The translations under genes were made by a program, and so were the position numbers. A DNA stretch of 7,297 nt, from the NCBI GenBank assembly GCA_041486365.1, contig JBGPLH010000168.1:1-7297 (forward strand). The letters run 5' to 3'. This document shows, in pieces, positions 1,994-7,171 of this stretch; the stretch's first letter is position 1, and every line of letters begins with the position of its first letter. The DNA is from JBGPLH01 sp041486365 [NCBI: Thermodesulfobacteriota bacterium] (GTDB lineage Bacteria; JAUYMQ01). Below the pieces are notes generated by a model. It worked only from the letters and a program-made list of their open reading frames with translations. It did no database searches and had not been told where the DNA came from.

Positions 1994-2004
1994 GACTCCT
2001 CCTT
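1994..2004 (-). promoter_or_regulatory. Strong Shine-Dalgarno of the PEP-CTERM gene, abutting the repeat array
   Basis: On the minus strand AAGGAGG occupies 2004-1998, with AGTC between it and the ATG. Its first bases are the CAAG that closes the nearest 29-bp repeat, so the ribosome-binding site is fused directly to the array. The other copies continue CAAGCC and lack the GGAGG core. Confidence 0.75.
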
Positions 2005-2174
2005 GAGAATACGCCGCTCTCGCGGCGAGGCTTGAGAATACGCCGCTCTCGCGGCGAGGCTTGAGAATACGCCGCTCTCGCGGCGAGGCTTGAGAATACG
2101 CCGCTCTTGCGGCGAGGCTTGAGAATACGCCGCTCTTGCGGCGAGGCTTGAGATGCGCCGCCTGCGCGGCGCGG
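2002..2174 (-). repeat. 29-bp tandem repeat array, each unit a perfect hairpin, in the PEP-CTERM gene leader
   Basis: Five 29-bp units start at 2002, 2031, 2060, 2089 and 2118, with a diverged sixth at 2147-2174. On the plus strand each unit is CTTGAGAATA, then CGCCGC, a four-base loop, GCGGCG, then AGG. Copies 1-3 are identical (loop TCTC); copies 4-5 are identical to each other and differ from them only in the loop (TCTT). In the sixth copy both arms change together to give a 7-bp stem, GCGCCGC/GCGGCGC, around CTGC. Read as minus-strand RNA, copies 1-3 have a GAGA loop, a GNRA tetraloop, on a 6-bp all-GC stem. The array fills most of the gap between the propeller and PEP-CTERM genes, so it would be a string of hairpins in the mRNA leader. 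There are no spacers, so it is not CRISPR. Copy number could vary by slippage. Confidence 0.9.
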
Positions 2175-2190
2175 TTGGACGGAGAGGCGG

Positions 2191-2230
2191 CCCCTCCGGA
2201 TCCGGTGGGGCGCTCCCCGGTGAAACCGGG
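2191..2230. other. Palindrome and hairpin after the propeller gene
   Basis: Two dyads lie just beyond the stop of the propeller gene. CCGGATCCGG (2196-2205) is a perfect 10-bp palindrome flanked by CCCC and GGGG, making a 20-bp imperfect palindrome (2191-2210). CCCGGT and ACCGGG (2216-2221 and 2225-2230) form a 6-bp stem with a 3-nt loop. On the minus strand neither is followed by a run of T, so they may slow polymerase or protect the 3' end but are poor intrinsic terminators. Operator function is equally possible. Confidence 0.3.
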
Positions 2231-2237
2231 TTCCGGC

Positions 2238-3800
2238 TCAGCGCGCCGAGACGCGCCGCGCGATCTCCCGGGAGAAGTAGCCGTCGGTCCAGGCGTCGAG
2301 CTTCGCCGTCATCTCGTCGATCCGGATCCGGAGATCGATCGACTCCTCGCTGCCCCTCGTGTCCGGTCCGCCCATGCGGATCAGCGAAAGGATCGCCCGA
2401 CGCCGCTCGAAATAGATCTGGTTCACCTCATCCAGCACGTCATCGCGCAGCGTGACGAGCCGCCGCGACTCCTCGCTCACGTCCAGCTCGTCCGGATTGA
2501 ACAGGAGCTCCCCGAGGTCCCACTCGGCGGCCGCCACGACTTCCCTCCGGCGCTCGGAGCCGAGCGACTCGTCGAAGAGCCGGTGGACCGCGTTGCTGGA
2601 GAAAGTCTGGTTGGCGTCCCGATCGAGCCCACGGATGAGCTGGCGGTGAGTCGAGAGGGAGATCGTGGGAAGGAGCGCCCGCCATCGCACGCCGTGGAAG
2701 TTGCGGACCATGCGGCCGGGGTCGAGCTGATTCGCGCGCAGCACGGCGCGGCGCACGTCGTCGATCCCGGGCTCCCCGCGCCAGAGGAGATCGATTTCCC
2801 CCGGGTAAGCGCCGGCCCCCCGGGCGGGGTCCTCCGTCGCCGCCGCCCGCTCTGCCGAGGCGAGCGCCGTCTCGAAGAGCCCGCGATCCGTCCCCACGAG
2901 AACGCGCCCTCCCGGGAGCGGCAGCAGCGAGAAGATCGTCTCGCCGGGCGGGCCGTTGCCAAGCGGCTCGATTCCCGTCTCCGGCCGCACGCGGAAAAAG
3001 CGGCCCGGCGCGGCCGCGAGGAAACCCGGGGACGCGCCCGGCTCCGGGGCGAAGCGGGCCGCGAGGTAGGCGATCTCGCGCGTCCCGGGAAGATCGCGGA
3101 AGGCCCCTTCGTCCCGCGCGACGACGTAGCCCCCGTCCGTGACGGCGAGCGTGGCCGCGCCCGACGCGGCCACCCAGGCCGTGGGCCGCGACAGGTCACG
3201 ACGCGCGCCTCCCGCCGCGCCGTCGACCCGGTAGAGCCCGTCCCCGGAGGCAGCGTGGATCGCTCCGGCCTCGTCCCACGCGAGACGATCGACGGATCGC
3301 CCGGAAAGCGCCGCGATGGCGGGCCGCCGGTTCGCGCCCTCCGGATCGACCACGAGGACGCCCGCCTCGGTGCCCAGCGCGAGCGCGCCCGAGCCCCGCG
3401 GGTCCTCCGCGAGGGCTCGCACGCCTCCCCGTGTCCCGGCCCCAGCGAGATCGATCGCCTGCCACCCGTGGCCGTCGCGGCTCACGCGCGCGCCCGAGGG
3501 GCCCGCCACGGCAAGGGCCCCTGCGAGCGGTCCATGGCGAAGGAACAGGAGATCGGCGATTTCCCCTTCCGTGCGCTCGCCGGCACGCCAAAGGGCGCCG
3601 CCATCCTCGGAAACGAAGATCGTTTCGCCCGCCGCCGCCGCCAGTCGTCTGCCGGTGGCGTCCGCCGCCAGCGCCGTCACGGCGCCAGAGGCGATTCCGC
3701 CCACACGGCGCCATTCGGCGGCCCGGGCGGGAAGCCCCCACCCCAGCGCGGCCACCGCCGCGATCCCGATGATTCCCGCTCCCCTCCTTCGTCCTTCCAC
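2238..3800 (-). CDS. Secreted Asp-box beta-propeller protein with conserved helical C-terminal domain, function unknown
   Basis: A 520-aa exported protein when started at the GTG at 3800, which has a GGGAGGGGAG purine run just upstream and gives a well-formed signal peptide: EGRRRG, hydrophobic AGIIGIAAVAALGWGL, cleavage near ARAA at residues 26-28. The frame is open to a further GTG at 3875, but that extension would bury the signal peptide. Residues from about 29 to 315 are propeller-like beta repeats with two Asp-box motifs, SEDGGALW (64-71) and SRDGHGW (107-113), and recurring T-D/E-x-G-L/V-F/L blades. Residues from about 335 to 515 form a charged helical domain with D-V-R-R-A-V-L-R-A, WDLGELLF (427-434), a block L-R-D-D-V-L-D-E-V-N-x-I-Y-F-E-R-R-R (451-468), and E-M-T-A-K-L-D-A-W-T-D-G-Y-F-S-R near the end. 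I recall similar W-D-L and L-R-D-D-x-L-D-E-V-x-x-x-Y-F-E-R-R-R blocks in exported hypotheticals of Deltaproteobacteria, Nitrospirota and Omnitrophota. Probably periplasmic or outer-membrane associated; no enzyme motif seen. Confidence 0.8.
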   Translation of the reverse strand: MEGRRRGAGIIGIAAVAALGWGLPARAAEWRRVGGIASGAVTALAADATGRRLAAAAGETIFVSEDGGALWRAGERTEGEIADLLFLRHGPLAGALAVAGPSGARVSRDGHGWQAIDLAGAGTRGGVRALAEDPRGSGALALGTEAGVLVVDPEGANRRPAIAALSGRSVDRLAWDEAGAIHAASGDGLYRVDGAAGGARRDLSRPTAWVAASGAATLAVTDGGYVVARDEGAFRDLPGTREIAYLAARFAPEPGASPGFLAAAPGRFFRVRPETGIEPLGNGPPGETIFSLLPLPGGRVLVGTDRGLFETALASAERAAATEDPARGAGAYPGEIDLLWRGEPGIDDVRRAVLRANQLDPGRMVRNFHGVRWRALLPTISLSTHRQLIRGLDRDANQTFSSNAVHRLFDESLGSERRREVVAAAEWDLGELLFNPDELDVSEESRRLVTLRDDVLDEVNQIYFERRRAILSLIRMGGPDTRGSEESIDLRIRIDEMTAKLDAWTDGYFSREIARRVSAR

Positions 3801-3972
3801 GGCTCTCCCCTCCCTCGCCGGAATCAAAAGGCCGGCTGCCTTCGCGCATCCGTGCGCGGGGCATCCGACCTTCACAGAGAGGAGAACCGGACGCCTCCCT
3901 CGGGGAGGGAGGATCTTCTGGACGTTTAGTGGCGCGACCCGTAAAGGCGTGGCACGGGTGGTGGGAAAAAAG
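3801..3972 (-). other. 172-nt gap between the membrane-protein and propeller genes: two hairpins, no clear promoter
   Basis: Just after the membrane-protein stop the minus strand has a six-T run (3966-3971) without a strong stem before it. ACCCGT/ACGGGT (3937-3942 with 3954-3959) can form a 6-bp stem with an 11-nt loop. No convincing -35/-10 pair was found on the minus strand. The gap is long enough for the propeller gene to be a separate transcription unit, but the sequence does not prove it. Confidence 0.35.
3894..3912 (-). terminator. Strong hairpin, possible terminator of the three-gene operon
   Basis: CCTCCCTC (3894-3901) and GAGGGAGG (3905-3912) form a perfect 8-bp stem with a 3-nt loop, about 60 nt past the stop at 3973. 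The minus strand after it reads CGTCCGGTTCTCC, with no true U-tract, so termination would be inefficient or factor-assisted. Confidence 0.3.
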
Positions 3973-6218: not shown

Positions 6219-7118
6219 CTAGCGACCGAGTACGTGGCGCAGGCATCCCTCCAGCGCCGGGTACCGGAAGCGGAATCCCCGATCGAGAAGTCGCGCGGGG
6301 ACCACGCGCGTGCTGGCGAGCAGCATCTCGTCGGCCATCTCGCCGAGCGCGATCCGGAGCGCGAAGGCAGGAAGGGGCAGGACCGCGGGCCACGAGCGGA
6401 CCCGCGCGAGGGTCTTCGTGAACTCCCCGTTCGTCACAGGCTCCGGGGCGGTCACGTTCACGGGCCCCGACAGGTCGTCGCTCCCGAGCACGTGCTGGAT
6501 CGCGCCGATCACGTCGTCGATGGCGATCCAGGACATGTACTGCTTGCCGTCCCCGAGCCGACCGGCGACACCCATCCGGAAGGCCGGGAGCATCTTGGCC
6601 AGTGCTCCGCCGCCCGGGCCGAGCACGATCCCGAACCGCAGGGGCACCACGCGGATGCCCGCCTTCTCCGCGGCACCGGTCGCCGCCTCCCAGGCCCGGC
6701 TCACCTCCGCCAGGAACCCCTTCCCCGGCGGGCTGTCTTCCCGGAGCGTCTCGTCGCCCCTGCTCCCGTAGAAGCCGATGGCGGAGGCGCAAAGCAGGGC
6801 CTTCGGCTTCATCGCGAGGCCCGCGAGTGTCTCGGCGAGGAGCCGGGTGCTCCGCGTGCGACTCTCGAGGATCCGCGCCTTGCGCTTCTGCGTCCAGTGG
6901 CCTGCCGCGATGCTCTCTCCGGCCAGATGCACGACAGCGTCGTGACCCCCGAGCCCCTTCGCATCCATCGCGCCCGTCTCCGGATCCCAGCGCAGCTCAC
7001 CGCGCCCCGCCTCGGCCTCGCGGCGCACCAGCCGGCTCACGGTGTGGCCGCCCGTCGTGAGGAAGGGGACGAGCGAGGCACCGATGAACCCGCTCGCGCC
7101 GGTGACGAGAATTTTCAT
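6219..7118 (-). CDS. TIGR01777-family epimerase-like SDR protein (YfcH type)
   Basis: A 299-aa extended short-chain dehydrogenase/reductase-like protein, cytoplasmic; substrate unknown. The N-terminal NAD(P)-binding motif is TGASGFIG (6-13). HLAGESI (64-70) and the helix W-T-Q-K-R-K-A-R-I-L-E-S-R-T-R-S-T (75-91) are hallmarks of the TIGR01777 family. The catalytic-site region is SAIGFYGSRGDE (112-123) with the active tyrosine Tyr117. RFGIVLG (161-167) and YMSWIAIDDV (194-203) follow. The C-terminal residues, about 245-297, match the short DUF1731 tail (P-A-F-A-L-R, E-x-L-L-A-S-T-R-V, LLDRGFRFRYPALE). Length is normal for the family. The ATG at 7118 is supported by CAGGGA about six bases upstream and by the Rossmann motif starting at residue 3. 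It appears to be the first gene of an operon with ndh and the membrane protein. The reaction is not established for most family members. Confidence 0.93.
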   Translation of the reverse strand: MKILVTGASGFIGASLVPFLTTGGHTVSRLVRREAEAGRGELRWDPETGAMDAKGLGGHDAVVHLAGESIAAGHWTQKRKARILESRTRSTRLLAETLAGLAMKPKALLCASAIGFYGSRGDETLREDSPPGKGFLAEVSRAWEAATGAAEKAGIRVVPLRFGIVLGPGGGALAKMLPAFRMGVAGRLGDGKQYMSWIAIDDVIGAIQHVLGSDDLSGPVNVTAPEPVTNGEFTKTLARVRSWPAVLPLPAFALRIALGEMADEMLLASTRVVPARLLDRGFRFRYPALEGCLRHVLGR

Positions 7119-7142: not shown

Positions 7143-7171
7143 GCGGCGCGATGCGCGGCGCGATGCGCGGC
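7143..7171. repeat. 12-bp tandem repeat, about 2.4 copies
   Basis: GCGGCGCGATGC is repeated twice without gap (7143-7154, 7155-7166) and begins a third time (7167-7171), upstream of the epimerase-like gene. It may be simple slippage in GC-rich DNA or spaced binding sites in its promoter region. No clear -35/-10 pair was found on the minus strand in 7119-7226. Confidence 0.5.

Follow-up and report, generated by a model that had tools for sequence, protein, structure and literature searches.

The window, by which we mean the whole stretch of DNA analysed, comprises 7,297 bases at 71% GC and carries six main genes, all on the minus strand:

7118-6219, minus strand: gene of the TIGR01777 family, with a family match above cut-off
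6153-4744, minus strand: NDH-2-like gene, with Pyr_redox_2 and NDH2_C matches above cut-off
4731-3973, minus strand: gene for a 252-aa protein, without family match
3875-2238, minus strand: gene for a 545-aa protein, co-oriented with and upstream of the PEP-CTERM-like gene, with weak matches below cut-off
1993-1274, minus strand: gene for a 239-aa PEP-CTERM-like protein, with PEP-CTERM and LTD matches below curated cut-offs
1036-218, minus strand: murI, glutamate racemase, downstream of the PEP-CTERM-like gene, with family matches

Judged by eye, the 239-aa protein has a hydrophobic N-terminus. It matches a lamin-tail domain weakly (E 0.0084) and, at its C-terminus, PEP-CTERM (Pfam E 0.008), and its C-terminal end also matches seven NCBIfam PEP-CTERM or exosortase-dependent families; every one of these matches lies below its cut-off. 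The best family matches of the 545-aa protein, which by eye resembles an exported beta-propeller protein, are F510_1955 glycosylhydrolase (E 8.3e-07, far below cut-off) and PUB_1. Among viral contigs there were no confirmed relatives of the PEP-CTERM-like, 545-aa or MurI proteins, and among plasmids no relative of the PEP-CTERM-like protein, while 78 plasmid records were found for MurI and 53 for the TIGR01777 protein, all below 60% identity. These searches of viral-contig and plasmid proteins yielded no orthologous leaders. A strong sigma-70-like promoter, TTGACA-17-TACCAT, precedes murI at 1206-1234 on the minus strand, agreeing at 10 of 12 positions (shuffles of the region average 0.0 such sites), and no terminator was found in 1000-2400. 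TRF also reports a second, shorter tandem repeat at 7143-7171, some 25 bp ahead of the TIGR01777-family gene, which starts at 7118: 2.4 copies of the 12-bp unit GCGGCGCGATGC, with 100% match.

The intergenic gap from the 545-aa gene to the PEP-CTERM-like gene is 244 bp long and contains the tandem array that is our subject. TRF reports it as a single array at 2002-2171, with a period of 29, 5.9 copies, 95% match and a score of 296. By our own division, five full 29-bp units (2002-2146) are followed by a diverged sixth, and the whole abuts the ribosome-binding site:

2002-2088: copies 1-3, identical, with minus-strand loop GAGA
2089-2146: copies 4-5, mutually identical, differing from copies 1-3 at one loop base (C to T), with minus-strand loop AAGA
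2147-2174: copy 6, diverged, 28 nt long and at the edge of the array, with a 7-bp stem and a different loop
2004-1996, minus strand: Shine-Dalgarno AAGGAGGAG, read from the sequence, preceding the ATG at 1993

The unit pattern CTTGAGAATACGCCGCNNNNGCGGCG is matched exactly by five copies, at 2002, 2031, 2060, 2089 and 2118, and when up to three mismatches are allowed it finds matches in none of 200 dinucleotide shuffles. The array is thus real and far beyond chance, and in its description of the array the original prediction proved accurate but for one point on copy 6, taken up below: it had proposed a tandem array of 29-bp units with a common 6-bp GC stem, and the stem CGCCGC/GCGGCG is unchanged in all six. 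It had further stated that copies 1-5 vary in the loop only, that the three gene-proximal hairpins carry GNRA loops and that the array ends inside the ribosome-binding site; the single C to T change in copies 4-5, the GAGA loops of copies 1-3 and a three-base overlap between the array end and AAGGAGGAG agree with each of these statements. Since copies 1-5 differ at one base, they would be recent duplicates, counting as about one event. Copy 6 has one base changed beside each stem arm.

Several other readings of the gap were considered. On the minus strand the array contains no start or stop codon in any frame and its unit length is not a multiple of three, which rules out an in-frame coding repeat; with no minus-strand start codon there, a leader peptide within the array was also rejected. 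An upstream start or leader peptide for the PEP-CTERM-like gene fared no better, for although the frame is open to 2311, it offers no start codon before the ATG at 1993. On the plus strand, a 597-aa ORF (2136-3929) begins at a TTG inside the array; we take it as spurious because it runs antisense to the 545-aa gene and has no Pfam or NCBIfam match at E 0.01. Two strong GC hairpins without a T-run lie at 2176-2237, after the stop of the 545-aa gene and before the array; the predicted folding energy of 2176-2240 is -35.0 kcal/mol, and the hairpins may be the 3' end of the upstream transcript.

No further copy of the unit occurs in the window outside the array. In genome_contigs (given as 84,980 species) a scan with the exact pattern, which needs 22 exact bases and would miss diverged arrays, matched only in Microbacterium, where a lone copy stands outside any array and is a chance match; the same exact pattern found nothing among viral contigs. 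This absence of copies elsewhere in the window, of arrays in genome_contigs and of matches in viral contigs is as expected for a locally born repeat. Searched with the leader DNA, plasmids returned eight records and phages two, all short and weak matches (best E 0.07 and 0.02, respectively).

As a background for arrays in GC-rich DNA we used 1.05 Mb at 68.5% GC, made up of 54 loci from five genomes of the phylum of Microbacterium; the phylum was chosen through the chance match and may not be the window's own lineage. (In this phylum the PEP-CTERM-like protein has a weak match in 3 of 100 genomes, E 1.2e-9 to 8.3e-4.) Filtering TRF output for a period of 15-60, at least 3.5 copies and at least 85% match left 14 rows, representing 13 distinct arrays, as one array gave two rows, and one of these rows outscores the array of the window (317 vs 296). 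The background is very uneven, with 13 rows from one genome (G024, 480 kb), one from G043 and none from G039 (480 kb), G051 (80 kb) or G029 (6 kb), and therefore an array such as this can be called ordinary for some genomes only. By a crude ORF finder, 11 of the 14 rows lie inside ORFs and one abuts gene starts, so that the position of the window's array is not typical. The one that abuts gene starts, at locus L036, is a 16-bp, 6.1-copy array (2602-2698) between two divergent ORFs, 5 bp from the start of one and overlapping the other by about 7 bp.

The hairpins, whose copy pattern the original prediction read as that expected of a selected fold, are as follows, with probabilities computed in the full leader:

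2155-2172, minus strand: copy 6, 7-bp stem, 4-nt loop, probability 0.74
2128-2143, minus strand: copy 5, 6-bp stem, loop AAGA, probability 0.74
2099-2114, minus strand: copy 4, 6-bp stem, loop AAGA, probability 0.56
2070-2085, minus strand: copy 3, 6-bp stem, loop GAGA, probability 0.19
2041-2056, minus strand: copy 2, 6-bp stem, loop GAGA, probability 0.35
2012-2027, minus strand: copy 1, 6-bp stem, loop GAGA, probability 0.33

Because the stem arms are identical, the units pair with each other, not one by one; without the upstream part of the leader the single-hairpin probabilities are 0.24-0.72. Under a 30-nt limit on pairing all six hairpins form (0.97-1.0), so they could still arise as the RNA folds during transcription; at limits of 60 and 100 nt the probabilities scatter between 0.10 and 0.94. 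For a 206-nt stretch that includes the array the predicted folding energy is -90.4 kcal/mol; shuffles average -81.1 (z -2.16), and 5 of 200 do as well. A GC hairpin is common at the GC content of the window: a perfect stem of at least 6 bp is held by 396 of its 7,096 29-mers, and outside the array there are 31 such hairpins, compared with 24.1 (15-38) in 20 shuffles.

The original prediction had also held that copy 6 changes both arms so that a longer stem is kept. At the position of the extra G-C pair of copy 6, copies 1-5 carry an unpaired A-A; the pair replaces a mismatch, and no pair has been exchanged for another. Among the six copies of this array there is no compensatory change, and the core stem is invariant. 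Copy 6 carries six changes in a gapped alignment, or seven with the loop left ungapped, all of them outside the 12 stem columns; under uniform placement the chance of avoiding the stem in this way is 0.026 or 0.012, respectively, a figure computed post hoc, and this speaks in favour of the original prediction. Correction of one stem arm against the other during replication would also keep the arms matched. No Rfam family reaches its gathering cut-off in the window (0 matches). Our conclusion is that selection on the fold is not supported, because the copies are non-independent, covariation is absent, the hairpin is common, the z-score of -2.16 is modest and the arms cross-pair. What survives of the proposed leader element is a tandem array that lies in the leader, touches the Shine-Dalgarno and can form GC hairpins. 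It is plausible that the array is a length-variable element, and both the exact fit of its end to the Shine-Dalgarno and the untouched stem of copy 6 could reflect constraint.

We also modelled how far the Shine-Dalgarno would be open at different copy numbers. For the bare array without upstream sequence the modelled opening is flat, at 0.22-0.29 for 1-10 units. With the upstream sequence and copy 6 included it is 0.27 for one unit, 0.60 for five and 0.54 for ten, while opening of the AUG drops from 0.49 to 0.39; the natural array gives a modelled Shine-Dalgarno opening of 0.43. Such a model would leave room for a weak effect of copy number, which is a point in favour of the original prediction.

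The second sequence element to recur with the unit is a -10-like box:

2127-2006, minus strand: five TATTCT boxes (-10-like, TANNNT), starting at 2127, 2098, 2069, 2040 and 2011, 29 bp apart

The box is present in five of the six units, and the array's five boxes are the only TANNNT on the minus strand of 1994-2240. Outside the array TATNNT starts at three places, counting both strands, and TANNNT at six on the minus strand, including the -10 of the murI promoter. In terms of minus-strand 29-mers, TANNNT is found in 141 of 7,096 and TATNNT in 21 of 7,096, compared with 396 of 7,096 for the hairpin. TATTCT is thus rarer by composition than the hairpin, though it represents one founder event. 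At spacings of 15 to 20 the best -35 partner of any box agrees at 2/6, and a promoter scan found no promoter in the array. The earlier suggestion that these boxes could act as weak -10 sites, which had been ranked below the hairpins, concerns the rarer of the two features, but no -35 goes beyond 2/6.

How, then, should the array be explained? If every TATTCT-bearing unit contributed promoter activity, the array would be a promoter tandem repeat whose copy number sets transcription of the PEP-CTERM gene, a dial driven by slippage. The scarcity of TATNNT and TANNNT outside the array speaks for this, as does the precedent of the M. tuberculosis lpdA repeat with its cited 12.5-fold effect (PMC12817950), and in both M. 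marinum and M. bovis the dominant -10 motif is described as TANNNT (PMC4128351). However, promoters with a -10 alone cannot be assumed for this host; the murI promoter of the window does have a perfect -35, transcription from the gene-proximal box would be expected to begin inside the Shine-Dalgarno, and all five boxes stem from one founder unit. We regard this explanation as unlikely. The explanation closest to the original prediction, a selected RNA leader in which successive GC hairpins, three of them closed by GNRA loops, would stabilise the mRNA or bind a protein and present the Shine-Dalgarno, can draw on the stem in 6/6 units, the end of the array in the Shine-Dalgarno, the formation of every hairpin at the 30-nt limit and the modelled rise in Shine-Dalgarno opening from one to five units. 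Against it stand the recent duplication of the copies without covariation, the abundance of hairpins at this GC content, the cross-pairing arms and the modest z-score, as well as the low opening without upstream sequence, the fall back at ten units, the falling AUG opening, the intermediate value of the natural array and the lack of an Rfam family; overall we consider it quite unlikely.

The hairpin sequence, a perfect palindrome, could instead be read in DNA, with CGCCGC-N4-GCGGCG (16 bp) as the site of a dimeric regulator, repeated five or six times 29 bp apart. The preserved arms and variable spacer, copy 6 included, are what an operator array would show, but no regulator family is among the listed matches of the window's six main minus-strand proteins, no further unit occurs in the window, and the gap shows nothing of the sigma-54/PrsR arrangement known from proteobacterial PEP-CTERM genes, so that we hold an operator array to be improbable. 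Finally, short-read assembly might have distorted the copy number, or produced the array itself. The identity of copies 1-3 extends over 87 bp and the array spans 170 bp, lengths that we would expect to be prone to miscounting, and collapse errors and the limits of short reads are described in PMC12817950; yet copies 4-5 and copy 6 carry distinguishing changes, giving three unit types, and the flanks read as open genes. An artefact of this kind seems very improbable indeed.

The explanation that we favour, and think somewhat more probable than all else, is that the array is a slippage-grown minisatellite (VNTR-type) in the 5' leader of the PEP-CTERM-like gene. In a minisatellite or VNTR a unit of about 10-100 bp is repeated head to tail in highly similar copies, and the period of 29, the 5.9 copies and the 95% match of the array agree with that description. 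The near identity of copies 1-5, with the diverged copy at the edge, also speaks for this reading. The founder would have been a 29-nt stretch ending at the Shine-Dalgarno that by chance held a GC hairpin and a TATTCT box; it would then have been duplicated in tandem through slippage or unequal recombination, and the hairpin may have helped by stalling replication. On this scheme the outer copy (6) would be the oldest and most diverged, and the inner five recent. Were copy number to vary, it would alter both the length of the leader and the number of -10-like boxes, and a modest cis effect on expression is plausible; such an effect is possible through promoter count, which we think unlikely, or through RNA structure, which we think less likely again. 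In a more ambitious version, slippage would make the array an expression dial for a PEP-CTERM surface protein: with a -10 element and a hairpin in nearly every unit, as far as the ribosome-binding site, copy number would set promoter count and leader together. We are doubtful of that proposal.

If copy number does vary and matter, PEP-CTERM surface proteins would join the genes tuned by tandem repeats in leaders or promoters. A literature search pairing the two subjects found no PEP-CTERM gene tuned by a tandem repeat, a weak negative that covers titles and the openings of abstracts. If instead this is an ordinary minisatellite, it carries a caution, namely that duplicated copies of one hairpin are no evidence for selection on the fold.

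Three published systems invite comparison. With the sigma-54/PrsR upstream element of PEP-CTERM genes, in which motif 1 is described as sometimes repeated, the locus shares a gap of more than 200 nt before a PEP-CTERM gene (Haft et al. 2006, PMC1569441). Unlike that element, the gap (1994-2237) contains neither TTTACA within one mismatch nor a -24/-12-like site, of which the window as a whole has 20 against 15.06 by chance; this comparison used the TTTACA end of the 17-nt motifs and a -24/-12 site. In M. bovis, 17 VNTR typing loci are described as overlapping or lying within 5' UTRs, and one 77-nt 5' UTR as consisting wholly of a MIRU (PMC4128351). As in those cases, the repeat here makes up most of the leader, whereas MIRU are a dispersed family and the array unit has no further copy in the window, the likeness being one of description. 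The M. tuberculosis promoter tandem repeats described in PMC12817950 include those of lpdA (58 bp), cysG (54-56 bp) and dop (57 bp); the lpdA repeat lies 12 bp upstream of its gene, and expression is cited there as 12.5-fold higher with four copies than with one. Since these repeats and the M. bovis loci are in print, a leader minisatellite is, by analogy, a known kind of element. Our array differs from the M. tuberculosis repeats in its 29-bp unit and its overlap with the Shine-Dalgarno, and it is likened to them by description. It resembles them in being a short tandem repeat of the slippage-prone kind a few bases before a gene, with TANNNT in five of six units, and is possibly a leader VNTR that tunes expression as they do.
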